From an uncultured Robiginitomaculum sp. (GTDB taxonomy: Bacteria; Pseudomonadota; Alphaproteobacteria; Caulobacterales; Maricaulaceae): DNA of 64,000 bases. Below are positions 34,638 through 48,056 of this stretch, in pieces. Numbering within the stretch: position 1 is the first letter of the stretch; each line of letters opens with the position of its first letter. A program made the position numbers and the translations under genes. The notes under the pieces are model-generated. The model ran no database searches. It worked only from the letters and a program-made list of their open reading frames with translations, and was not told the DNA's origin. Location: assembly GCA_938010385.1 (NCBI GenBank), contig CALLVD010000024.1, positions 23,132 through 87,131 of the forward strand. Direction: 5' to 3'.

Positions 34638-37600
34638 TTGGTGGGGTTTGACGTGAATACAATTATCCAATTTTGGGTAAAGTGCTTCGCTGTGACTGTT
34701 TTGATGTTGGCGTCCCTCTCAGGAGCAGAGGCGCAAAACGCCTCAAGTCTCGGACGCACGGTTACCAATGTCGCGACAGTAAGCTATGAGACCGAGTTCG
34801 GCTCTCTGACCCTGCAAACCAATCCGGCAGTGTTTACAGTTGAGGCGCGCAGAACAGACTCGACGATTGAGTTCTTTCGTTTTGCCCCGTCCTCCGACAG
34901 TGCCGATTTGATCAAAGTTAACGGCTCTGATTACGCGCCAAGCGGAAATCTCTCCGGACCGTTCACGCAAACCGGCGCGCCTGTCACAGGCATCGGAAAC
35001 CTGATTGATTTGTCAAATGCTGTCCCGTTAACCCCGGCAGAGCTTTATGCCACCGGCGAGCTGATGTTTGTTCGGGTGATTGACCCCGGCCAGAACGGCA
35101 ATGACAATATTATAGAGACCGTGACAATTACGATTGCCACATCAGGCGCGGATGAAATCGTCCTGCGCCTTTATGAAAGCGGTCCGGCGACCGGCGAATT
35201 TTGGGCTTACGTCCCGACAAGCCGCGATCCGAGCCCGCAACATGATAACCGCCTGACAACCGAGTCAGAAACGCGCCTGACGGCAACCTATATCGATGCG
35301 TTTGACGCCACAGAAGTGTCCGTTGATACCGCCTTGGTTGATCCGTACTGCCGCGTGTTTAACGCGCTGACCGGTGATTTGGTCGACGGCGCTGTTGTAA
35401 CGCTTATGGACCGCGCCACCGGCTTGCCCGCAACTGTGCTGGGCGTTGACGGCGAGTCGATATATCCGTCCACGGTCACGACCGGCGAAAACACTGAAGA
35501 TTCCGGCGGCTATGTTTATGAAGTCCGCCAAGGGGAGTTTAAATTCCCGATTTTAATGCCGGGCGATTACTATCTCGACGTTGAAACCCCTGAAGGTTTC
35601 ACGTTCAGTTCCGTCTATCAGCCTGCGCAATTTGCCGGCATTGATAACGGCCCTTACTTAATTGAAGATCAGGGCTCTTACGGCGAGACATTTGCGCAGG
35701 CTGCATTAGGCCCGCTGCATTTTGATGTGCCGATTGATCCCAAGACTGACATTGTGCTGACCAAAACGGCGTCCCCGACAATCGCTGATGTCGGTGACTT
35801 TATTCGCTATAGTGTGAATATCCAAAACGCCGGTAATGTCGCCTCCACAATGCGCGTTCATGATATGGCGCCGCGCGGCTTTCGTTTCATCAGCGGCTCA
35901 TCGCGCGTCAACGCCTTAAAAGTCGCTGACCCTGTGGTCTCCGATAACGGCCAAGAGCTGACCTATACCCTGCCTGTTTTACAGCCGGGCGAGAGCTATC
36001 AACTGCACTACATCATGCAGGTCGGCGCGAACCTGTCCGAAGGTGAGTATGTCAACTCCGCTATGGTTATTGATAATGACGGCGTTCAAAGCTCGAATAT
36101 AGCCCGCGCGGAAGTGACCGTTCGCGAAGAGCTGCTGCGCTCAACCAATACAATTATCGGCCGCGTGGCAGAATATGCCTGTGACGCCGATGAAGACTGG
36201 GCCAAGGAAATCCTGGACGGCACCGGCGTGTCCGGCGTGCGGCTTTATATGGAAACCGGCGAGTACACCGTCACCGATGAAGACGGCCTGTATCACTTTG
36301 AAGGCGTTTCGCCCGGCACTCATGTTGTCCAGGTCGATGAAGAAACTCTGCCGCAAGGCTACGCCGCCATGATGTGCGAAGATAACAGCCAATATGCCCG
36401 CTTGAAGACGTCGAAATTTATCGACAATAAAGGCGGCGGCATCTGGCGCGCAAACTTCTATCTGGCCCGAACCGGCGAGATTGATGACAGTATCGGACCA
36501 AAGCAGTTTAACGATACAACCGAATATTTGGACTTCGGCTCTGAATGGCTTGAAACCCAAACAGACGCGATTGAATGGGTCTATCCGCAAGCGGGTAAAA
36601 CCCCGTCTGCGCCGTCCGTCAATATCGGTATTAAGCACGCCAAAGGCCAAACGGTCAGCCTGACTTTAAATGACAGCCCTGTACCGCTTTTGAACTTTCA
36701 GGCGCGCGACAGCAATAAAACCCGTTCGGTTTTAATCAGCCGCTGGCGCAGTGTTGACGTGCTCGACGGGCAAAATGTCTTTGTGGCGACGGTCAAAAAC
36801 GCTGACGGCAGTATTGCTGAAACTATCCGCCGCGAGATCTATTTCATCAAAGATATTGCGCGCGCTATTGCGGCCCCGGATCAGTCCGTGCTGGTCGCTG
36901 ACGGGCGTACCCATCCGGTGATTGCAGTGCGTATTGAAGACAATGCGGGCCGCCCGGTGCATTCCGGCCGCAAGCTGAAGGTCGATGTTCAGGAGCCTTA
37001 TCGTCTTGAGACCTCTGATCGCCTTGAGAGCGTTAATGAGCTGGTCGCGCCCAACGCCTCGCGCGCCGATGCCTCTGTGGGCGCAAACGGTATCGCCTTG
37101 ATCCGCTTGCAGCCGACGCTGCAAACCGGCCGCGCAACCGTTACAGTCACGCTGGATGACGGCCGCACGGTTGACGTCACGATGTACCTGAAACCTGAAA
37201 AACGCGACTGGATTATCATCGGTCTGGCCGAAGGCTCTGCCGGTATGGAGCAGCTTGAAGGCAATAAAATTGATCTGTCGGAAAACGGCACTGACATTAT
37301 TGACGGACGCCTGGCTTTCTTTGCCAAAGGCTTGGTCAAGGGTGACTGGCTGATGACACTGGCGGTGGATACCGCTAAGCGCCGCGGCAAGCGGGACGGC
37401 GATCTGTTTGAAGAGATTGATCCGAACGCCTATTACACGCTTTACGGTGACCGGTCTTATCAGGAGCATGAAGCGCGCTCACGCTATCCCGTTTATCTGA
37501 AACTGGAAAAGAACACGTTCTATGCCATGTTCGGCGATTACGACACCAATATGATCGACAGCGAGTTGACGCGCTATTCCCGTCGTCTGTCCGGCTTTAA

Positions 37601-39686
37601 GACGGAATATGCCGGCGAGCGTTTTGATCTGATTGCCTTTGCGGCCGAGACCAACCAAGGCTTTGCCAAAGACGAAATTCCGGCGGACGGGACAAGCGGC
37701 GTTTATCGCACAAGCTTCTCCCCCGTGCTCGGCGGAACAGAAACCATCACGATTGAAACCCGTGACCGCTTCAGAAGCGACGTTATTCTCGACAGCCGAA
37801 TTATGCGCCGTCATTTGGACTATACGATCGACTATCTGACAGGCGATATTATTTTCCGCTTGCCGGTCGACGGTACGGACGCGCAATTTAATCCGAACGT
37901 CATCGTTGTTGATTATGAAACGTCCGAGGATTCGGAGCGCAATCTGACCTATGGCGCCCGTGCGGCGGTCAAGTCTGCGGGCGGGAAACTGCGCGCCGGT
38001 GTGAACTATATCCACGAAGAAGGCCGCGCTGATCGCCCCGGCGGCGAGCAGGATGTGCTGGGCGTTGATATTGTTGCGCGCTTGTCGGAATCTACCGAAG
38101 TGCGGGCCGAATATGCCCTGTCAAAAGACAAGCAAGACAGCGGCGAGACCATCGACGCTGCGGCTTATCTGGCCGAGATTGTGCACACGTCTGATGATTT
38201 CTCTGCCCAAGCCTATATTCGCGAAGAAGAAGCCGGCTACGGCGTGGGTCAACAGGGCAGTAACACAAACGGCATTCGCCGCTACGGCGTTGACGCGAGC
38301 TACGTTATTTCTGAAAATATTCAGGAAGACACCGGCCGCCGCCTTCTGCGCAATGTTGAGGGTCAGTCCTATGTTGAGCAAAGCCTGGCAACAGGCGCTA
38401 AGCGCACGCTGACAGAAATCAGCGTCACCCAAGACAGCGATGCCTTCGGCGGCGCGCTGGGCCTGCGTCATGTCAAAGAAGACCTTACCGCCGGCGAGCA
38501 GCGCGAAAGCCTGCTGGCTATCGGCTCGGCCCGGTTCTCATCGCCTAAGCATGGCTTTACAGCCTCCGTCGCCCATGAGCAGCCTTTGGGCGGCGAGGAT
38601 GAGTCAACTCTCTTCCCGCAGCGCACCACGCTGGGACTGGATAAGACCATCACAAGCAAAGCGGCTGTCAGCCTGCGCCATGAAGTTCTCGAAGGCCAAA
38701 ATGCGGCCGGCGAAAACACAACGCTCGGCGTAACCTACAGCCCATGGATCGGTACGGACGTCTCTGCACAGACTGACATGCTGACAGGGGATTCCGCCCG
38801 CCGCCTCGGCGCGACTGTCGGCGTTGACCAACAGTTTAAGCTAAGCGAAAAATGGAGCGCGTCTGCGGGCCTTGCTCAGCGTAAGATTTTAGACAATGTC
38901 GGCACAGCGATTGACGTTGTCCCCGATGACGCGATTGCGCCGATTGATATCAGCGAAGATTATATTACCGGCTATATGGGCGTCGGTTACCGCACGGCTG
39001 TCACCTCGGCATCTGCCCGTCTTGAGGCCCGCGATTCTCAAAGTTCTGAGACCTATATCGCAACGGCCGGCGTAGCGCGCGAGCTGTCAGAAGAGCTCTC
39101 CATTGCCGGCGCGGCGCGCAGCCAAGCGGTCAATTATAAGACGGACGGCACGGACGAGGCGCGCACGGATATTCGCATCGGGACCGCTTGGCGTCCGCGC
39201 GGTGAAGGCATCGTTGTCTTTGACCGGTTTGATTTTAAACATGACCGCACGGCAGATAATGTCAGCACAACAAAGCTGATCAATAATCTGACCGCAAATG
39301 TCATGGTCAATGATCGCACGCAAGTGACCGGCTATTGGGGAATCAAGCATGTTGAAACTGACATTGCCGATGACCGCTACAGTAATTGGACCAATCTTCT
39401 GGGCGGTGAGCTGCGCTATGATGTAACCCCGCGCATTGATGTGGGTGTGCACGGCCAAATGATCAGCACGGGCGAAACAACCTCTTATGCTTATGGCCCG
39501 TCAATCGGCGTGTCCCCGGCAGAGAATATGTGGATCAGCGTCGGTTATAATGTCGAAGGCTATAATGATGATGATTTTGAAGCTGCCGAATACAGCCGCG
39601 ACGGCCTTTATATCAAGCTGCGCCTGAAATTTGACCAAGAGAGTGCGGGTAAGCTCTTAAGAAAGATTTCACCGACCGGGCGTTAA
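34638..39686 (+). CDS. large (~1680 aa) DUF11/SdrD-like repeat protein with predicted C-terminal outer-membrane beta-barrel (non-ATG start, position uncertain)
   Basis: DUF11 segments (DIVLTKTASPTIADVGDFIRYSVNIQNAGNVASTMRVHDMAPRGFRF), SdrD/prealbumin-like GVSGVRLYMETGEYTVTDEDGLYHFEGVSPGTHVVQVD, long alternating amphipathic C-terminal half ending IKLRLKF.. Confidence 0.85.
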   Translation: MVGFDVNTIIQFWVKCFAVTVLMLASLSGAEAQNASSLGRTVTNVATVSYETEFGSLTLQTNPAVFTVEARRTDSTIEFFRFAPSSDSADLIKVNGSDYAPSGNLSGPFTQTGAPVTGIGNLIDLSNAVPLTPAELYATGELMFVRVIDPGQNGNDNIIETVTITIATSGADEIVLRLYESGPATGEFWAYVPTSRDPSPQHDNRLTTESETRLTATYIDAFDATEVSVDTALVDPYCRVFNALTGDLVDGAVVTLMDRATGLPATVLGVDGESIYPSTVTTGENTEDSGGYVYEVRQGEFKFPILMPGDYYLDVETPEGFTFSSVYQPAQFAGIDNGPYLIEDQGSYGETFAQAALGPLHFDVPIDPKTDIVLTKTASPTIADVGDFIRYSVNIQNAGNVASTMRVHDMAPRGFRFISGSSRVNALKVADPVVSDNGQELTYTLPVLQPGESYQLHYIMQVGANLSEGEYVNSAMVIDNDGVQSSNIARAEVTVREELLRSTNTIIGRVAEYACDADEDWAKEILDGTGVSGVRLYMETGEYTVTDEDGLYHFEGVSPGTHVVQVDEETLPQGYAAMMCEDNSQYARLKTSKFIDNKGGGIWRANFYLARTGEIDDSIGPKQFNDTTEYLDFGSEWLETQTDAIEWVYPQAGKTPSAPSVNIGIKHAKGQTVSLTLNDSPVPLLNFQARDSNKTRSVLISRWRSVDVLDGQNVFVATVKNADGSIAETIRREIYFIKDIARAIAAPDQSVLVADGRTHPVIAVRIEDNAGRPVHSGRKLKVDVQEPYRLETSDRLESVNELVAPNASRADASVGANGIALIRLQPTLQTGRATVTVTLDDGRTVDVTMYLKPEKRDWIIIGLAEGSAGMEQLEGNKIDLSENGTDIIDGRLAFFAKGLVKGDWLMTLAVDTAKRRGKRDGDLFEEIDPNAYYTLYGDRSYQEHEARSRYPVYLKLEKNTFYAMFGDYDTNMIDSELTRYSRRLSGFKTEYAGERFDLIAFAAETNQGFAKDEIPADGTSGVYRTSFSPVLGGTETITIETRDRFRSDVILDSRIMRRHLDYTIDYLTGDIIFRLPVDGTDAQFNPNVIVVDYETSEDSERNLTYGARAAVKSAGGKLRAGVNYIHEEGRADRPGGEQDVLGVDIVARLSESTEVRAEYALSKDKQDSGETIDAAAYLAEIVHTSDDFSAQAYIREEEAGYGVGQQGSNTNGIRRYGVDASYVISENIQEDTGRRLLRNVEGQSYVEQSLATGAKRTLTEISVTQDSDAFGGALGLRHVKEDLTAGEQRESLLAIGSARFSSPKHGFTASVAHEQPLGGEDESTLFPQRTTLGLDKTITSKAAVSLRHEVLEGQNAAGENTTLGVTYSPWIGTDVSAQTDMLTGDSARRLGATVGVDQQFKLSEKWSASAGLAQRKILDNVGTAIDVVPDDAIAPIDISEDYITGYMGVGYRTAVTSASARLEARDSQSSETYIATAGVARELSEELSIAGAARSQAVNYKTDGTDEARTDIRIGTAWRPRGEGIVVFDRFDFKHDRTADNVSTTKLINNLTANVMVNDRTQVTGYWGIKHVETDIADDRYSNWTNLLGGELRYDVTPRIDVGVHGQMISTGETTSYAYGPSIGVSPAENMWISVGYNVEGYNDDDFEAAEYSRDGLYIKLRLKFDQESAGKLLRKISPTGR

Positions 39687-39715: not shown

Positions 39716-41740
39716 ATGCCTTTGGGATTGAAAACATTCAGATGCGCTGCGGCGATGGGAGTCGCTGCGGCCGCTGCCATACTTGCCCCTGCCGTGTCCG
39801 CGCAAACCGGCACGTATACGACAACGACCGGCGGCGCCATCGGCGACGCGGTGACGTGCGGAGTCGCAAATTTGACCCGCACGATTAATGTCCCGGACAG
39901 TTTTATTGTGCAAGATTTGGACTTCGGCTTTCTGGCAGAACATGAATATCGCGGCGATATCCGCGTCGAGCTTTCTCATGGGGGCATCACCCGCCGCATT
40001 ATCGAATCGGACTTTAACGGCCCCGGATCTTTGACGAATTATAATGTTCGCTTAAACGACGGCGCCGCCGATTTTATTTTAGGCTCAACCCATACAACGG
40101 GGGACGGCTTGGTCGCGCCGCCTTATGAAAATGATGTCAGGCCTGATGCAAGCCTGAACGCTTTTGCCGGACAAAACGCCGCCGGCCTTTGGACCTTTAC
40201 AATTTGCGATAATTATAACGGTCTGGATTTCGGTAACTTTTTGCGCGCCGATCTGATTTTTACAGGCTCTACGGAAGCGGATTTGTCTCTGGATTTAACC
40301 CACACACCGGCAAGCCCGTCGCAAGGCACGAATGTGACCTTTACCGCGCAAATCACAAATAGCGGGCCGCTGGCCTCAACCGGCCGCAGCGCGCAGATTA
40401 ACCTGCCGAGCGGATTTACATTTGTCTCTGCGACCGGCGGCGCAACCCATAGCGGCGGGGTCGTTACTTGGACGCCGGGAACAAGCTTGGCATCAGGCAG
40501 TTCCGAGAGCATTGCAATTACGGCGACAATGAACTTTACGGGCGACTATACTGCAACGGCGCAGATTACAGCCCAAGATCAGGACGATCCCGACAGTACG
40601 CCGGCAAACGGTATTAACGGCGAAGATGATGACGCGACGCGCCCGGTGACGCCGGCCGTGACGCCGCCTCCCGCGCTCAGCTGCGGCGCCGCCGCAACCG
40701 TGCATGATTGGGACGTGAATGCATGGGCGGCCGGAGATTTAAGCAATTCTTACACAACGGACGGGGAAACGATAAGCTGGGCTCTGACCGGGGCTACCGC
40801 GTCGCTTCAGCCTAATCCGGACGGCTCCGGAACGGCTTTGCCGGCGTTGTCGGATTATGACAGCGGCGGGCTTATCCCGACTGAAAATGCGCTTTTAATG
40901 CTTGTTGATTTTCCAAGCCGGGCTTCAGAAATTCTGACAACCGTTGATGTCGGCGTCGCCGGCACAGGCGTTGATGAATTGCAATTTGCCCTGTTTGATG
41001 TTGATTACGCCTCCGGGCAATTTGAAGATAAAATTGCGCTGACGGGGTCCCTGAACGGAAATCCTGTCTTGCCGACTTTAACGCGGGGGCCGTCAAATAC
41101 GGTGTCTGCCGGCGTGGCCTTTGGAACGGCCGGCGCGGCGAATAACACAAATTTAGGTACGGTCTATGTCACGTTTCAAAGCCCGGTCGATCAATTTGTC
41201 ATCAGCTATGGCAGCGGCACGGACAGCACAACGCCGGTAAATCCGGGCTTACAGGCTATATCCATTCATGATGTGTCGACCTGTGAAAGATTGCTGCCGG
41301 ATATTGCGGCTGTGAAAACAAATGCCGTTTACGACCCGCTGAGCCAAGGGCTCTATGCGGTGCCGGGCAATGATGTGATTTATACATTCACGGTAACGAA
41401 TTCCGGCAACGGTCCGACCGACCCCGATTCTATGTTATTGATTGATGTCATGCCGGATGAAATTGAGTTTTATAACGGCGATATTGATGACGCCGGCCCG
41501 CAAACGGATCCGGTGACCTTTACCCAAACCGGAACGCCGGCTTTGACTTTCAATTATCCGGGCGATGTCGGGTTTTCTGACGGGGCCGTAAAGCCGGCAG
41601 ATTTTTCCGCGTGCGGCTACGCGCCAAGTCCGGGCTATGATGCGGCTGTTAACTTTATCTGCTTTAATCCCAAAGGAACGTTTGAGGCAGGCTCGCCTCC
41701 GCCGGAGTTTTCAATCAGCTTTCGCGCGCGAATTAAATAG
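39716..41740 (+). CDS. secreted protein with N-terminal proprotein-convertase P-like domain and DUF11 domains
   Basis: NLTRTINVPDSFIVQDLDFGFLAEHEYRGDIRVELSHGGITRRIIESDFNGPGSLTNYNVRLND...GLWTFTICDNYNGLDFGNFLRADLIF (P/Homo B-like) followed by DUF11. Confidence 0.85.
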   Translation: MPLGLKTFRCAAAMGVAAAAAILAPAVSAQTGTYTTTTGGAIGDAVTCGVANLTRTINVPDSFIVQDLDFGFLAEHEYRGDIRVELSHGGITRRIIESDFNGPGSLTNYNVRLNDGAADFILGSTHTTGDGLVAPPYENDVRPDASLNAFAGQNAAGLWTFTICDNYNGLDFGNFLRADLIFTGSTEADLSLDLTHTPASPSQGTNVTFTAQITNSGPLASTGRSAQINLPSGFTFVSATGGATHSGGVVTWTPGTSLASGSSESIAITATMNFTGDYTATAQITAQDQDDPDSTPANGINGEDDDATRPVTPAVTPPPALSCGAAATVHDWDVNAWAAGDLSNSYTTDGETISWALTGATASLQPNPDGSGTALPALSDYDSGGLIPTENALLMLVDFPSRASEILTTVDVGVAGTGVDELQFALFDVDYASGQFEDKIALTGSLNGNPVLPTLTRGPSNTVSAGVAFGTAGAANNTNLGTVYVTFQSPVDQFVISYGSGTDSTTPVNPGLQAISIHDVSTCERLLPDIAAVKTNAVYDPLSQGLYAVPGNDVIYTFTVTNSGNGPTDPDSMLLIDVMPDEIEFYNGDIDDAGPQTDPVTFTQTGTPALTFNYPGDVGFSDGAVKPADFSACGYAPSPGYDAAVNFICFNPKGTFEAGSPPPEFSISFRARIK

Positions 41741-42554
41741 CCGCAGGCAGTCTGATTTCTGATTGCATGACGGTGACGGCGGGTCCGGCAATGTCGATAT
41801 AATCCCCGGTGATTGTCAGGTGCAGCGCGCCGCCGCGTGCAGAGGCTTGATAGGCAAGGATATTCTCTTTTCCCAATCTGCGTGCCCAGTAAGGGCCGAT
41901 GGCGGCGTGGGCAGAGCCGGTCACCGGATCCTCATTAATGCCTTCGGCCGGCACAAAGAAGCGCGACACGCAATCATAGTCTGAAAAGCCCGGGGCCGTG
42001 ATGCCGACGCCATGATCTGACAACGCGATGATGGCGGTAAAATCAGGGGTCAGGGTTCGCACATTTGCGGCGCTGCCAAAAACCAAATACAAATTCGCGC
42101 CGGCGTGAAAGGCGGCCGTAATTGTGGCCCCCCGAAAGGCGGCGCGCATGGCCGCAGTGACCGGCGTTGGGGTTGCCTTGGCTGCCGGCGCGCGCAGCAC
42201 ATAGTTGTTTTCGGGCCGCGTGACGCGAAGTGCGCCGATGCGCGTGTGAAAAACATAGGCGCCGTCATCATCCGTTTGCGCTCTGTGCTCGGCGGCCAAG
42301 GCATGCGCGCTTGCAATCGTGGCATGACCGCAAAACTCTATTTCTGTTGTCGGGGTAAACCAGCGTAAGTCATAATGTCCGGGCGCGCTTCGCGGTACAA
42401 GGTAAGCCGTTTCAGACAGGTTGTTTTCCTCTGCCAAGGCTTGCATCAAATCTTCCGAAAGCGGGGCGCCGGTTAAAATAACAGCGGCGGGATTGCCCCG
42501 GAAGGGGCGGTCGGTAAAGGCGTCGATTTGATATTGTAAAAGCCTGCAGGTCAT
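41733..42554 (-). CDS. PhzF-family epimerase/isomerase
   Basis: YQIDAFTDRPFRGNPAAVIL, ALAEENNLSETAYLVP, DPVTGSAHAAIGPYWA. Confidence 0.93.
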   Translation of the reverse strand: MTCRLLQYQIDAFTDRPFRGNPAAVILTGAPLSEDLMQALAEENNLSETAYLVPRSAPGHYDLRWFTPTTEIEFCGHATIASAHALAAEHRAQTDDDGAYVFHTRIGALRVTRPENNYVLRAPAAKATPTPVTAAMRAAFRGATITAAFHAGANLYLVFGSAANVRTLTPDFTAIIALSDHGVGITAPGFSDYDCVSRFFVPAEGINEDPVTGSAHAAIGPYWARRLGKENILAYQASARGGALHLTITGDYIDIAGPAVTVMQSEIRLPAAI

Positions 42555-42566
42555 TCCCGGGCTTTA

Positions 42567-45356
42567 TCACGCAACGGCGTTTGTGTCACCGTGATGTGGC
42601 CGCAGCTTTTGCCGTCCCGCGGTGGTTTTTAATATGGCCATTGCGCTGAAAAGCTCTGCGGCGACAACGGGTTTGGTTAAAAACATATCTGCGCCGGCGT
42701 TCATGCAGCGGGCATTGCTTTCGGGCGAGGTATCGGCGGTCAGCGCAATAATCGGCACAGCTGCGCTCGGCCCGTTCATCCCGCGTATGGCCTGCATGGC
42801 CTGAACACCGTCCATGACCGGCATATGCACATCCATTAAAACAACATCGAATTGTTGCGCCGACAGGGCGTCCAAAGCCTGCTGTCCGTTCTCGGCTGTT
42901 GCCAAAATACATCCGGCCGGTTTTAAGAAGATTTTTAAAACGTCCCGATTGCTTTGCAAATCCTCGGCAATTAAAACCCGCATGCCCTTTAAGGCGGTTA
43001 AGCGATTACCTTGCGGCGCAGGCCGGGGGTTTTGCAAGGGAGCGGGCGGCGGTCCGGGCAGAACTTCGGGCGCGGCCGGCTGATTATCGGGGCTAAACCT
43101 GGCGTCCGCATGAAGGAACTGTTCTTTAATGCTTGGCCGCAAAGTGACAGGGCTTGCATCCGTTTTTGCGCTGTCTTGCGCTTGCGTCATATCGGCAGCG
43201 CGCAGGGTCAGCGTAAATTCCGAACCGCGACCCGGGGCTGTGATGACCGTAGTATCTCCGTCCATCAAATGCGCAATGCTGCGCGTAATGGCCAGTCCGA
43301 GCCCGGAGCCGCCAAATTTACGGCGAATAGAGACATCGGCTTGCATAAACGGTTCAAAGATTTGCTGCGCTTTTTCCTGCGTCATGCCCTGACCCGTATC
43401 AGCAACAATGACCGTCAACAGGCCCCGCTTTTCACTCCGCTTTGCCGGGGCAAAGGTGATATGGACATGCACTCGGCCTTCATCTGTGAACTTTAAAGCG
43501 TTGGAAATCAGGTTTTCGAGACACTGGCGCGTGCGCATCGGATCAACATCAAGCAATTGCGGAACGTCATCGGCCACATAGACGGTCAGGGCAATGCCTT
43601 TCTTTTGCGCCTCCGGCTCCCATAGCGCTTTTAAATTTTGCGTAATTTCGCGCAGGGCAGTCGGCATGCGATCCACCTGCATATCGCCGCCATCCATTTT
43701 TGACATATCCAAAACATTGGTCAAAAGCTCAAGCAAGGTCAGGCCGGACTTATATATGACGCCGGTTTTAAACTTAACATCTTGATCGGGGCCTTCGCGC
43801 GACAAAATTTCCGCAAGGCCGATAATGCCGTTGAGCGGCGTGCGCAGTTCATGAGACATGACAGCCAGGAAATCCCGCTTGGCTTTTTCGCCGGCTCTGG
43901 CGCGTTTTTTCAACACGGCTTCGCTTTTCGCAAATGCGTTTTGGCGCATGGCCCATGCAATCAGGCCAATGCCTATGGCGATCAGCAGGAAGATAACGAT
44001 GCGCATGAAAACACTCTGTCTGTCCTGAGCCGCAATACGTTCGCGTTGCAGATTGTTTTTAGTGGTCAGTTCCGCCTCTCGGGCGCGTTGCACTTCTTTG
44101 TCATTGGCAAGCGTGCCCATCAATTCTTGGGTGTCTTCCGACGCATTCTCCAGCAGGCGCAGATTGGCATGGCGCGCATTTTTTTGCATCAAATCAAAGA
44201 CAGCCTGCGGCCGGTTTTCGCTGACCGCAAGTAAGGCTTCGGCTTGCAGGATATCCTCGTCATATCGGCCTGCGAATTTTTTATCCGCATTGGCGGCCCG
44301 CACATATCTCAGCGCCGCCTTGGCCTCGGCGCGTTTCCCTTGCCCGGCCAGAGCCACAGCCAGCTCGGCTTTCAGGTTAAGCCGCCAGATATCATCGTTT
44401 GAAATAGCAATCGACGCTTTGGAAACGGTTTCTGCCGTCTCAAAACTGCCCAGCGCGTTAAGCGCTTCGGCGTAACGATAACCGGCCTTGGCCCGCTTAC
44501 CGGCGCCTTCATTGCCTGACATGCGGTAAGAGGTTTCCGCTGTCGTCAACGCCGCCGGATACTCGCCCCATTTTAAAAGGATAAATGTGAAATTATTCAG
44601 AATAGCCAAACCGTCAATTGCCCGGCCGGCTTGCGCCGTTTGGTTAATGTAAAGATCAATACTTTCTGTCGCTAATTCAATGTTTCCCAGATAGAAATAA
44701 ATTGAGCTGATTAATCCGTTGACCGCAATGGACAGTTCTGCTGCTTCTGCGTCGACAGTGTCAGGCACAAATTCAAGGGCCTTTCCGGCAGAGGCCAAAG
44801 ATGTATTAAAATCAGGAACCAGCATGTAGGTCAGCGAGTCAAAATACCAGGCATAGGCTTGGACAAACCGGTCTGCGTCAGTCTTATAGGTCTGAAGTGT
44901 GCCGGAAAAGCGTTGCGCGTCAAATGATCCGTCATCGACGGAATAGCCGTCTATTATTTCAGCGATTTTAAGATCCCGTGCGCTTCCCAGCGCTTTTGCG
45001 GCCTGCTTATATTGCGCCAAGGCTTCGCGGCCGGCCTCGGCATCCATGGCGTCCATGGCTTCAAGCAGCCAAACTCGCATATTCGCTAATTCGTCCATTG
45101 AAGGTCCGGTCGCGTCTGCGGATCCAAATACGTCACTTTTATGTTTAAGCGTAAATGATTGCTGCTCAATTTTTTTGGCGATAGATTGAATCTTCACTAC
45201 AGCGTTCTTGCGCGCGGTCCGGCGTCGCTCGTAATCAGTCTCTTGCGCAAAAGCGGGTTGTCCAAGCGACAGGACCGCCAGACCTGCAATCAACAGGCTT
45301 CGTAAAAAATTAATAAAATCTGCGCCGAGATTTGTCATTGCCCGCCTGTGTGTCAT
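42567..45356 (-). CDS. hybrid sensor histidine kinase with periplasmic TPR-like sensor region, HisKA, HATPase and C-terminal receiver (start may be 45335)
   Basis: FLAVMSHELRTPLNGIIGLAEIL, GSGLGLAITRSIAHLM, receiver VLMDVHMPVMDGVQAM; TM IVIFLLIAIGIGLIAWAM. Confidence 0.92.
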   Translation of the reverse strand: MTHRRAMTNLGADFINFLRSLLIAGLAVLSLGQPAFAQETDYERRRTARKNAVVKIQSIAKKIEQQSFTLKHKSDVFGSADATGPSMDELANMRVWLLEAMDAMDAEAGREALAQYKQAAKALGSARDLKIAEIIDGYSVDDGSFDAQRFSGTLQTYKTDADRFVQAYAWYFDSLTYMLVPDFNTSLASAGKALEFVPDTVDAEAAELSIAVNGLISSIYFYLGNIELATESIDLYINQTAQAGRAIDGLAILNNFTFILLKWGEYPAALTTAETSYRMSGNEGAGKRAKAGYRYAEALNALGSFETAETVSKASIAISNDDIWRLNLKAELAVALAGQGKRAEAKAALRYVRAANADKKFAGRYDEDILQAEALLAVSENRPQAVFDLMQKNARHANLRLLENASEDTQELMGTLANDKEVQRAREAELTTKNNLQRERIAAQDRQSVFMRIVIFLLIAIGIGLIAWAMRQNAFAKSEAVLKKRARAGEKAKRDFLAVMSHELRTPLNGIIGLAEILSREGPDQDVKFKTGVIYKSGLTLLELLTNVLDMSKMDGGDMQVDRMPTALREITQNLKALWEPEAQKKGIALTVYVADDVPQLLDVDPMRTRQCLENLISNALKFTDEGRVHVHITFAPAKRSEKRGLLTVIVADTGQGMTQEKAQQIFEPFMQADVSIRRKFGGSGLGLAITRSIAHLMDGDTTVITAPGRGSEFTLTLRAADMTQAQDSAKTDASPVTLRPSIKEQFLHADARFSPDNQPAAPEVLPGPPPAPLQNPRPAPQGNRLTALKGMRVLIAEDLQSNRDVLKIFLKPAGCILATAENGQQALDALSAQQFDVVLMDVHMPVMDGVQAMQAIRGMNGPSAAVPIIALTADTSPESNARCMNAGADMFLTKPVVAAELFSAMAILKTTAGRQKLRPHHGDTNAVA

Positions 45357-45404: not shown

Positions 45405-45437
45405 CCATAAAAAAAGCTCTCTAAAGAGAGCTTTTCC
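45405..45437 (-). terminator. strong intrinsic terminator of the small peptide gene
   Basis: Minus strand AAAAGCTCTC-TTTA-GAGAGCTTTT(TTT), perfect 10-bp stem and T-run. Confidence 0.9.
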
Positions 45438-45480: not shown

Positions 45481-45621
45481 TTACGCGCCGCAGGCTCTGC
45501 GACGACGGTTCAGGCAATCAATTTCCGGAATAGCGGATTCTGTGGCCTGTTTTTCTGTCTTTTCAGCGGACTTTGTGCCGCCTGTAACAGTTTTCAGTTC
45601 ATTTAAAGAGAGTTCACGCAT
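45481..45621 (-). CDS. 46-aa double-glycine-leader peptide (candidate bacteriocin or signalling peptide precursor)
   Basis: ATG 45621, TAA 45481: MRELSLNELKTVTGGTKSAEKTEKQATESAIPEIDCLNRRRRACGA; SD AAAGGAG 7 nt upstream; adjacent C39 ABC exporter; terminator downstream; absent from ORF track because <60 aa. Confidence 0.88.
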   Translation of the reverse strand: MRELSLNELKTVTGGTKSAEKTEKQATESAIPEIDCLNRRRRACGA

Positions 45622-45672
45622 ATTGAATCTCCTTTCCATGTCTGTTCCCGGCACAATTACCGAAGAACATAC

Positions 45673-45687: not shown

Positions 45688-45801
45688 TGAAAAAGGTCTG
45701 TACAAGTAAAATTTATGGTAAATCAAAGACTTAGCCAATTTTAATACTTTAAGGTGAAATTTTAGCCTAAAATTGCACTCTAAGGGTGCAGCCATGCCGT
45801 C

Positions 45802-47841
45802 TTACAGCGTAATAACCCGGTCTGCGCGCCGCAAGAATTCGGGGCGATGGGCAATAATGATGCGCGTAATCGGCATGCCGGCAATGACATCCGCGATTTC
45901 CTGTTCGGTTTGCACGTCCAAATTGGCCGTCCCTTCATCCAGAAACAAAATTTGCGGTGATTTATACAGCGCTCTGGCCAAAAGCACTCTTTGTTTTTGC
46001 CCGCCCGACAAAACGCTGCCCATATCACCGACCCGCGAATCATAGCCCATGGGCAGGGCGTCAATGTCGTCATGAATGCGCGCCGCTCTCGCCGCCTGCT
46101 CGACTTTGGCCATATCAAGCTGCGGGTCAAAAAAGGCTATGTTCTCGGCCAGACTTCCGGACAAAAGCGTGTCGTCCTGCATCACCACGCCAATATTACG
46201 GCGCCAAGCGTCAAGCCCTATATCGTCAAGACTGACAGACCCGATTTTGATATGGCCTGACGCCGGCCGATAAAGCCCGGTCATCAGCTTCATCAGAGTC
46301 GTCTTCCCGCCGCCGGATTTGCCGGTAATCGCAATCATTTCGCCGGATTTCACGCTCAGATTAAACCCGTCTAAAATCCAAGGGTCACCTTCGCTGTAAC
46401 GGAAATCCAAATCCTTTATGTCAATATCACCGCTGCCGAGCGTCTGCGCGCTGTCCGGGCTGCTTAGCTCCAGCGTGCCCAAAACAATATCGGACAAGCG
46501 GTCCAAGTGCAGGCCCAGCAATCGAAACTCAATCAGTTTTTCCAATAGCTGATCGGCGCTGATTGCAAAGCCGCCGGCAAAGGCCAGAAAGGCAAACAGC
46601 AGCCCCAGGCTGATTTCGCCGTCCATTACTGAATGCGCGCCGACATAAATGACGGCAATCGCCTGCAGGCCCGCGGCTAAATCTTTCACGCCGTTATTGC
46701 CGATGCGCCAAAGCCCGAAGCGCGTGTTGGCATTAACAAAATCAGCAAACAGGTTTCGCCACGCGCCCTCGCGCGCCGCTTGCCGTCCGAATAGCTTTAT
46801 GGTGGTGCCGGCGCGAATGCTCTCGATAATATGAGAGCGTTCCTGCGCGCCGGTCAGAATAGACGCTTCTTGCGCCGCGCGCAGTCTTGGATAAATCATC
46901 AGCGTTACGGCCAGCATAACCACGGTTCCGGCCAGAACGATAGCGGCCAGTTTCGGGCTGATGATAAACATCACGATGACGGTCGTAATTGCCATGACCC
47001 CGTCAATCAGCGCCGCAACCAAGGATTGGGTCAGCGCCGTTTGAATGGGCCCGGTACTGCCGACCCGCGAAATAATATCGCCGATATGGCGCTTTTCATA
47101 CCACCCGGCGGGCAGCCGTATCAGATGCGAAAACACATTGCCCGTCATCTGATAACTCATTTGCTGACCGTAAATCAGAATGGCCCAATTGCGTGTTGCC
47201 TCGGCGGCGATGCGCAAAATAACAAGCCCGCCAAACCCGATGGCGAGCGCTTTTAAAAGCCCTGTATCGCCGGACAGTAAGACGCCGTCTACGGTGAGTT
47301 GCAGGAAAAACGGCGAGAGCAAAATTGTTATTTGCAGCAGAACAGACAAAATCAGTGTTTGCCCCAGAGCCCGCTTCAGCCCGGTCAGCCGGCCCCATAA
47401 ATCGGACAGTTTCACATCTGTACGGTCTTTGATTGCGGTGAAATCAGTCCCGCGCGACAGCTCCATGGCGACGCCGGTAAAATGCTCGGACACTTCGCGC
47501 AGAGGTAAAGATTGTGCCCCGCTTGCCGGATCATGAATAAGGACGCGCCCGTTTTTAACGGCCTTAAGCACAACAAAATGATTGAGGTCCCAATGCAAAA
47601 TTGCCGGCAATTGAAGCTTGTCCAAATCCTCTAAGTCCAGCCGCAAAGCGCGGGGAGACAGGTGCAGCCGGCCTGCCATTTCAACAATATCGGCCAAGCT
47701 GGCGCCGCGCAATGACACGGCATAGCGTTCGCGCAGCGCGGCCAAATTGACGTCATGGCCGTGATATTGCGCAATCATGGCCAGACAGGCGAGGGCGCAT
47801 TCCGTGTCTTCTGTTTGGTACACGACGGGCAGCTTAGACAT
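45802..47841 (-). CDS. bacteriocin-type ABC exporter with N-terminal C39 peptidase (PCAT)
   Basis: Start placed at MSKLPVVYQTEDTECALACLAMIAQYHG; C39 Gln/Cys/His(HFVVLK)/Asp(IHDPASG) present; TM domain; Walker A GKSGGGKTTLMKL, LSGGQKQRVLLARAL. Confidence 0.95.
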   Translation of the reverse strand: MSKLPVVYQTEDTECALACLAMIAQYHGHDVNLAALRERYAVSLRGASLADIVEMAGRLHLSPRALRLDLEDLDKLQLPAILHWDLNHFVVLKAVKNGRVLIHDPASGAQSLPLREVSEHFTGVAMELSRGTDFTAIKDRTDVKLSDLWGRLTGLKRALGQTLILSVLLQITILLSPFFLQLTVDGVLLSGDTGLLKALAIGFGGLVILRIAAEATRNWAILIYGQQMSYQMTGNVFSHLIRLPAGWYEKRHIGDIISRVGSTGPIQTALTQSLVAALIDGVMAITTVIVMFIISPKLAAIVLAGTVVMLAVTLMIYPRLRAAQEASILTGAQERSHIIESIRAGTTIKLFGRQAAREGAWRNLFADFVNANTRFGLWRIGNNGVKDLAAGLQAIAVIYVGAHSVMDGEISLGLLFAFLAFAGGFAISADQLLEKLIEFRLLGLHLDRLSDIVLGTLELSSPDSAQTLGSGDIDIKDLDFRYSEGDPWILDGFNLSVKSGEMIAITGKSGGGKTTLMKLMTGLYRPASGHIKIGSVSLDDIGLDAWRRNIGVVMQDDTLLSGSLAENIAFFDPQLDMAKVEQAARAARIHDDIDALPMGYDSRVGDMGSVLSGGQKQRVLLARALYKSPQILFLDEGTANLDVQTEQEIADVIAGMPITRIIIAHRPEFLRRADRVITL

Positions 47842-48056
47842 TAACCTGTCCGTCCCATCAGCCAATATAACAGGCGCACAGGCCCGTCCGGCATTTGAAC
47901 GCTTCCAAACCATAAAACGCCCGCCGCAAGACTTGCGCCGCCCAGCAGCAAGGCCGTAATTATCAGGCTCGGCACATGGCGATGCAAAATGACATCACCG
48001 GACAGGCTTCGGCCGCGCGATTGCATCACTTCTTTTCGGTATAAAGGCGTCGTCAT
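47841..48056 (-). CDS. 71-aa HlyD/CvaA-family N-terminal stub (cytoplasmic tail and single TM only)
   Basis: MTTPLYRKEVMQSRGRSLSGDVILHRHVPSLIITALLLGGASLAAGVLWFGSVQMPDGPVRLLYWLMGRTG resembles the N-terminus of CvaA/HlyD-type membrane fusion proteins; stop overlaps the exporter ATG (TAATG). Confidence 0.7.
   Translation of the reverse strand: MTTPLYRKEVMQSRGRSLSGDVILHRHVPSLIITALLLGGASLAAGVLWFGSVQMPDGPVRLLYWLMGRTG

Follow-up and report, generated by a model that had tools for sequence, protein, structure and literature searches.

A putative three-gene peptide-signalling cassette in marine Caulobacterales, composed of a C39 exporter, a very short double-glycine peptide and a membrane-bound TPR histidine kinase

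Introduction

The stretch of DNA analysed here (the window; 64,000 nucleotides of contig CALLVD010000024.1 from an uncultured Robiginitomaculum sp.) carries on its minus strand a C39 peptidase-containing ABC exporter (PCAT), a 46-residue double-glycine precursor and a hybrid histidine kinase. Based on the comparison with related genomes, we consider it probable that these genes represent a peptide-signalling cassette consisting of PCAT exporter, mini-pheromone and membrane TPR kinase, for which export, binding and response are predicted. The precursors appear to constitute a family of very small peptide signals in marine Caulobacterales that has not been described before and whose export and detection are likewise predicted, and a literature search restricted to open-licence papers found no description of such an exporter-precursor-kinase system. 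Proteobacterial signals are typically small molecules made by enzymes, while oligopeptide signals represent the mode of the Firmicutes (PMC10075063), and peptide communication of the cassette type is usually associated with Gram-positive bacteria. In 2024, roles of Gram-negative PCATs beyond toxin export were considered probable, although without evidence (PMC10986499). The cassette offers named culturable strains, predicted peptides that can be synthesised directly and an adjacent predicted receptor. Thus, whether Gram-negative bacteria use ribosomal peptide pheromones, an old question, becomes testable.

Results

Translation of window positions 45621-45481 (minus strand) yields exactly MRELSLNELKTVTGG followed by TKSAEKTEKQATESAIPEIDCLNRRRRACGA and a stop codon. 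The precursor ORF (45481..45621, 46 aa) thus comprises a Gly-Gly leader of 15 codons (45577..45621), after which C39 cleavage is predicted, and a core of 31 residues. A Shine-Dalgarno sequence, AAAGGAG (45629..45635, minus strand), is located 7 nt 5' of the ATG, and an intrinsic terminator with the hairpin AAAAGCTCTC-TTTA-GAGAGC-T7 lies between the precursor and kinase genes (about 45409..45435, minus strand). A generic promoter/terminator scan of the window listed neither of these two elements and returned no promoter; the terminator was recovered by a direct hairpin search. Start codon, Shine-Dalgarno sequence, leader and terminator are hence all present as described in the first-pass annotation, made from the sequence alone. 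The same holds for the adjoining C39 exporter, a protein of 703 aa (45802..47913, minus strand) with Peptidase_C39, ABC membrane and ATPase domains (Pfam PF03412, PF00664 and PF00005), in which the Cys, His and Asp-Pro positions of the C39 domain do not vary among 19 orthologues. With a Gly-Gly leader next to a protease-competent exporter, the peptide qualifies as a predicted C39/GG (PCAT) substrate, which supports the earlier reading that the adjacent exporter handles a double-glycine precursor.

Database models provided little further information on the 46-aa peptide. Neither Pfam nor NCBIfam gave a match above cut-off; the NCBIfam bacteriocin_sig model TIGR01847 was missed narrowly (15.2 bits versus a cut-off of 15.7), and the remaining GG models also scored below their cut-offs. 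The direct homology search with the 46 residues, proposed in the first-pass annotation, was nearly empty as well, returning from 61 genomes the leader of the homologue in G004, the closest relative (E=0.09), and noise. An exporter-neighbourhood approach was therefore needed, and it proved positive. Exporter orthologues were searched in relatives, in all 137 genomes of the family Robiginitomaculaceae and in a named collection, in which the same-genus genomes are those of Robiginitomaculum, and neighbourhoods were scanned by regular expression at exporters at least 53% identical to that of the window. At about 35 Robiginitomaculaceae exporter loci a small ORF lies on the same strand, 150-290 nt downstream of the exporter; homologous short ORFs beside orthologous exporters, on which the earlier reading had been made to depend, thus exist. 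They share the leader MREL[TS]xEExExVxGG, in which M1, R2, L4, E8 and G14 are invariant among 34 precursors. When 16 homologous 22-aa precursors were combined into a profile from which the window sequence had been left out, the window ORF was recovered as the sole match in its assembly (E=1.3e-4), a 75% complete metagenome-assembled genome (MAG) of 2.05 Mb in 119 contigs with a single C39 exporter. At E<=0.05 this profile of 22 positions recovers precursors from 52 of the 137 family genomes, where the weakest matches may be due to chance. A search of 386 other alphaproteobacterial genomes at E<=0.001 yielded no match. Because of this absence, the precursor family is lineage-restricted.

The homologous precursors are mostly only 20-24 residues long in total. 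Following the leader, the core usually consists of 5-9 mostly hydrophobic and acidic residues resembling xPIVIDF, e.g. MPIIIDF in Hellea balneolensis, NPIVIDF in Litorimonas cladophorae, APIIVDF in Algimonas arctica and LPIVIDGEW in A. ampicilliniresistens. Among 40 units collected by hand, Pro occupies position 2 in 33, and 39 are 5-9 residues long, the remaining one having 11. Eight genomes encode tandem cores of 2-4 copies, such as FPIDIEV x2 in Robiginitomaculum antarcticum, and elsewhere IPVIDF x4, TPIDIEL x3, LPADIEW x4, FPIIIG x3, GPVIIET x3, LPIDIEV x3 and RSIKT x4. Since the unit remains constant in these tandem copies while the spacers vary, the core is the functional unit. The leader is constrained and the core variable; between loci L064 and L068, for instance, the leader shows no amino-acid change and the 7-residue core three. 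Pairwise substitutions in the leader at codon positions 1/2/3 amount to 1753/690/3156, a pattern expected when purifying selection acts on a translated gene. By direct hairpin search, a terminator is found within 130 nt 3' of 29 of 34 homologous precursors, compared to 7 of 680 shuffles (~1%).

Two points lay outside the first-pass annotation, namely these repeat-core relatives and the adjacent histidine kinase as probable receptor. In the window, the hybrid kinase (42567..45356, minus strand) comprises a signal peptide, an extracytoplasmic TPR domain, a transmembrane (TM) segment, HisKA, HATPase and a receiver; the region taken as sensor plus TM spans 43953..45236. Such a kinase gene lies directly 3' of the precursor in all 33 exporter loci with sufficient downstream sequence and was found at none of the other PCAT loci, outside the clade of these triads, while order and orientation of exporter, precursor and kinase are fixed across the family. 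In the kinase ORFs (727-1176 aa), an N-terminal signal or hydrophobic segment (28 of 33) precedes a sensor of ~400 residues and one TM near residue 450 (26 of 26 complete kinases), after which come HisKA, HATPase and, in most cases, a receiver. Of the 137 genomes, 47 contain the sensor family, mostly as a single copy; homologues lacking a recognisable precursor nearby are confined to few genomes and mostly lie at contig ends. Moreover, precursor and kinase stay together where the exporter is located elsewhere (G006, G111, G114, G113 and G116). In G006 the pair, with three GPVIIET units, lies beside clpB and 1.3 Mb from the exporter, in G111 and G114 it follows mutL, and in G113 and G116 it occupies further sites, the G116 contig ending within the presumed kinase; clpB and mutL are what we take the translated neighbours to be, as no database match underlies these names. 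No other finding argues as strongly for a ligand-receptor pair, whose binding we infer, as this linkage of precursor and kinase.

Column identity in the sensor is 0.15-0.38, compared to 0.43-0.57 in most kinase blocks, and a profile search with the sensor matched TPR domains of proteins with known structure. Modelled with AlphaFold (pLDDT 85.7), the window sensor forms an all-helical repeat whose best Foldseek match in the PDB is the Rap-CSF complex 4gyo; the first 50 matches also include NprR and several other Rap-Phr structures. For a second model, that of the Hellea balneolensis sensor, Rap structures also rank high, the first match being an IFT-A subunit. The TPR superhelix is a generic fold, and TPR proteins unrelated to pheromones (LGN, IFT-A) score almost as well or better against the sensor models. 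With TM-scores of about 0.5, the models therefore show a Rap-sized TPR superhelix and not homology to RRNPP receptors. Core similarity and sensor similarity are not correlated (Mantel test on 26 sets, with and without exporter covariate; rho 0.04, p 0.33). This result counts against the ligand-receptor model, in which the similarities of true pairs should correlate.

Beside the triads, the window included, no hlyD partner was found (0/35), compared to 50 of 60 other PCAT loci. As HlyD-family proteins are encoded elsewhere in the triad genomes, adaptor-free export is not proven hereby. In a tree of 97 exporters all triads fall into one clade (SH-aLRT 99), and its four non-triad members are contigs that end just past the exporter. 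We read this as one conversion, suggested by the tree, of an adaptor-linked cargo exporter into a peptide-signal exporter. The single-clade switch from HlyD-linked exporter to exporter-kinase cassette would represent a case of signalling arising from peptide export.

The described CtrA half-site TTAACCAT (PMC3692519, PMC6180460) occurs in exact form upstream of 14 of 33 homologous precursors, with 15 sites in total, whereas 200 shuffles gave 0.6 sites on average and never more than 3. The enrichment of this half-site before the precursors suggests cell-cycle control. Upstream of the window precursor only a one-mismatch variant, TTTACCAT, is present (45715..45722, minus strand, 101 nt 5' of the start codon). 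Judged by these sites, CtrA control is likely in the family as a whole, with a weak case for the window copy.

The window peptide is an outlier of its family, and the mature form of IPEIDCLNRRRRACGA is uncertain. Its core is the only long unrepeated one among the known members and the only one with Cys and an Arg-rich tail. The two-Cys, Arg-rich segment, for which a 9-residue disulfide loop had been suggested, is confined to this genome and absent from every homologous precursor, so that such a loop is not supported as the defining feature of the peptide. A functional connection between the putative loop and a nearby gene for a DCC1-like thiol-disulfide oxidoreductase was considered and rejected, as the gene is kept in G004, whose core is free of Cys. 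Between window and G004 the exporters are 73% identical, the first 220 kinase residues 30% and the products of nearby genes 53-90%. ESAIPEID of the window core aligns with EKAIPVID of G004 (shuffle p=0.0008 for protein, 0.004 for DNA). In line with this alignment, IPEIDCL (45511..45531, minus strand), our candidate pheromone unit, is the best window of the core profile (PSSM) within the window core, at a marginal p=0.046. IPEIDCL, together with the NRRRRACGA tail and preceded by a charged spacer, is thus probably the active segment, as far as can be read from sequence. The length of the core may result from lengthening, decay or a sequence error in the MAG. That the ORF is a decaying or misassembled family copy and no longer a functional signal deserves some weight, as it alone combines a core of 31 residues with the lack of a clean terminal unit and stems from a single, incomplete MAG. 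We nevertheless consider this doubtful, since leader, Shine-Dalgarno sequence, terminator, exporter and kinase are intact and ESAIPEID is kept.

Several further neighbours were observed. A PhzF-like gene (41733..42554, minus strand) directly follows the kinase on its 3' side in the window and also in L064, L065 and L068, which belong to another genus; it could be a fourth cassette member or be there by chance. A gene for a repeat surface-type protein of ~1680 aa lies near the window kinase on the opposite strand (34638-39686), and in L057, L060 and L061 such a gene is closer to the kinase than in the window. In two Hellea-type genomes (loci L288 and L289) the precursor-kinase pair is placed between mutL-like and rsmD-like genes, with the exporter elsewhere. 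A second PCAT type with hlyD (L210, L211, L213 and L216) has GG-leader proteins of 110-140 aa nearby, three of four sharing an (L/I)NR end, e.g. PYLNR, which points to a separate, undescribed cargo family. Near related PCATs in L070, L141 and L215, glycine-rich GG-leader proteins of ~70 aa are found that are Cdz-like in appearance. L183 encodes in precursor position a 68-aa GG protein (TCDLGTSS...), with hlyD present and without the kinase, as cargo of the sister clade.

Discussion

In the mechanism that we propose, the C39 domain of the exporter would cleave the precursor behind its Gly-Gly motif, and the core would then be carried across the inner membrane by the ABC part; for precursors with 2-4 tandem copies, a second protease would be needed to separate the units. 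The core would build up in the periplasm, and its small size may permit passage through the outer membrane without a dedicated adaptor or channel. Binding of the core to the extracytoplasmic TPR domain of the adjacent hybrid kinase would then alter its phosphorylation state, with autocrine or cell-density sensing as the outcome and with precursor production probably tied to the cell cycle via CtrA. The window copy would be a diverged member of this cassette family. For the more specific reading as Gram-negative peptide quorum sensing, with GG/C39-released pheromones of mostly 5-9 residues, no outer-membrane partner, an RRNPP-like extracytoplasmic TPR kinase and CtrA control, we consider the chances evenly balanced.

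The peptide might instead stay within its own cell and report the state of exporter or envelope to the kinase as an autocrine timer. The lack of an outer-membrane export partner adjoining the triads, the predicted periplasmic location of the sensor domain and the CtrA-type sites, which suggest cell-cycle timing, all fit such a private signal. Tandem copies and core variability between close species, however, resemble diversifying pheromones, and peptides of this size may exit via porins, so that we regard retention in the cell as rather unlikely. Lower still is the probability that the core is antibacterial and the kinase merely regulates its production. A GG leader together with a PCAT is the classic route of class II bacteriocins and microcins, and sister exporters in the family carry, along with hlyD, longer cargo that is in part glycine-rich like known toxins. 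The cores of the triads, in contrast, are mostly 5-9 residues long and no hlyD lies beside the triads; no immunity candidate is found among the scanned window neighbours, and it is the kinase and not an immunity gene that accompanies the precursor when the exporter lies elsewhere. The initial proposal of either a bacteriocin or a secreted signal is thereby narrowed: the constant sensor-kinase neighbour favours the signal, while short cores and the lack of an apparent immunity gene make the bacteriocin less likely. Finally, a modified RiPP or cofactor precursor beside the kinase by chance is very improbable: enzyme-modified products also derive from short leader-core peptides, but no radical SAM, YcaO, LanM or other maturase was recognised among the scanned window neighbours, and the kinase is linked in 33/33 loci.

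Comparison with known systems

The proposed signalling cassette shares features with the RRNPP systems of Firmicutes (Rap-Phr, NprR-NprX, PlcR-PapR and Rgg-SHP), in which a small propeptide gene likewise adjoins that of a TPR receptor and the peptide is short and linear. Internal peptide repeats are also known from RRNPP propeptides (PMC10075063). A propeptide of 10-100 aa encoded next to the receptor gene is found in the cassette, as is the TPR fold of the receptor, according to profile and models, with the Rap-CSF structure as the closest match of the window sensor model. RRNPP receptors, however, are intracellular, 250-500 aa long and bind re-imported peptides, whereas the TPR domain of the cassette is predicted to lie outside the cytoplasm and belongs to a membrane-bound histidine kinase of 727-1176 aa with signal peptide and TM, in a Gram-negative alphaproteobacterial host. 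Export differs as well, proceeding via Sec or PptAB in RRNPP systems and, as predicted from the GG leader beside a PCAT, via a C39/GG transporter in the cassette. Hence, the cassette kinase would work like an RRNPP receptor, with ligand binding inferred, and yet is not filed as one.

With the GG pheromones ComC/BlpC and the kinases ComD/BlpH of streptococci the cassette shares the GG leader, the C39 ABC exporter, the membrane histidine kinase and the clustering of the genes. Those kinases sense via multi-TM domains, in contrast to the TPR domain on the hybrid kinase described here. ComC/BlpC-type pheromones have about 17 residues or more, while the cassette cores are shorter, mostly 5-9 residues, and their pairing with the kinase is predicted from linkage. 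Class II microcins and colicin V export (CvaB) likewise combine a GG leader with a PCAT in Gram-negative bacteria; these are toxins that come with an immunity gene and HlyD/TolC partners and have far longer cores. Of such features, hlyD lies beside 0 of 35 triads, and the scanned window neighbours include no immunity candidate. HetC of Nostoc is likewise a Gram-negative PCAT for which a signalling role, by export of a peptide, has been proposed (PMC10986499). In contrast to hetC, near which no GG precursor is known, the cassette encodes both the precursor and its probable receptor.
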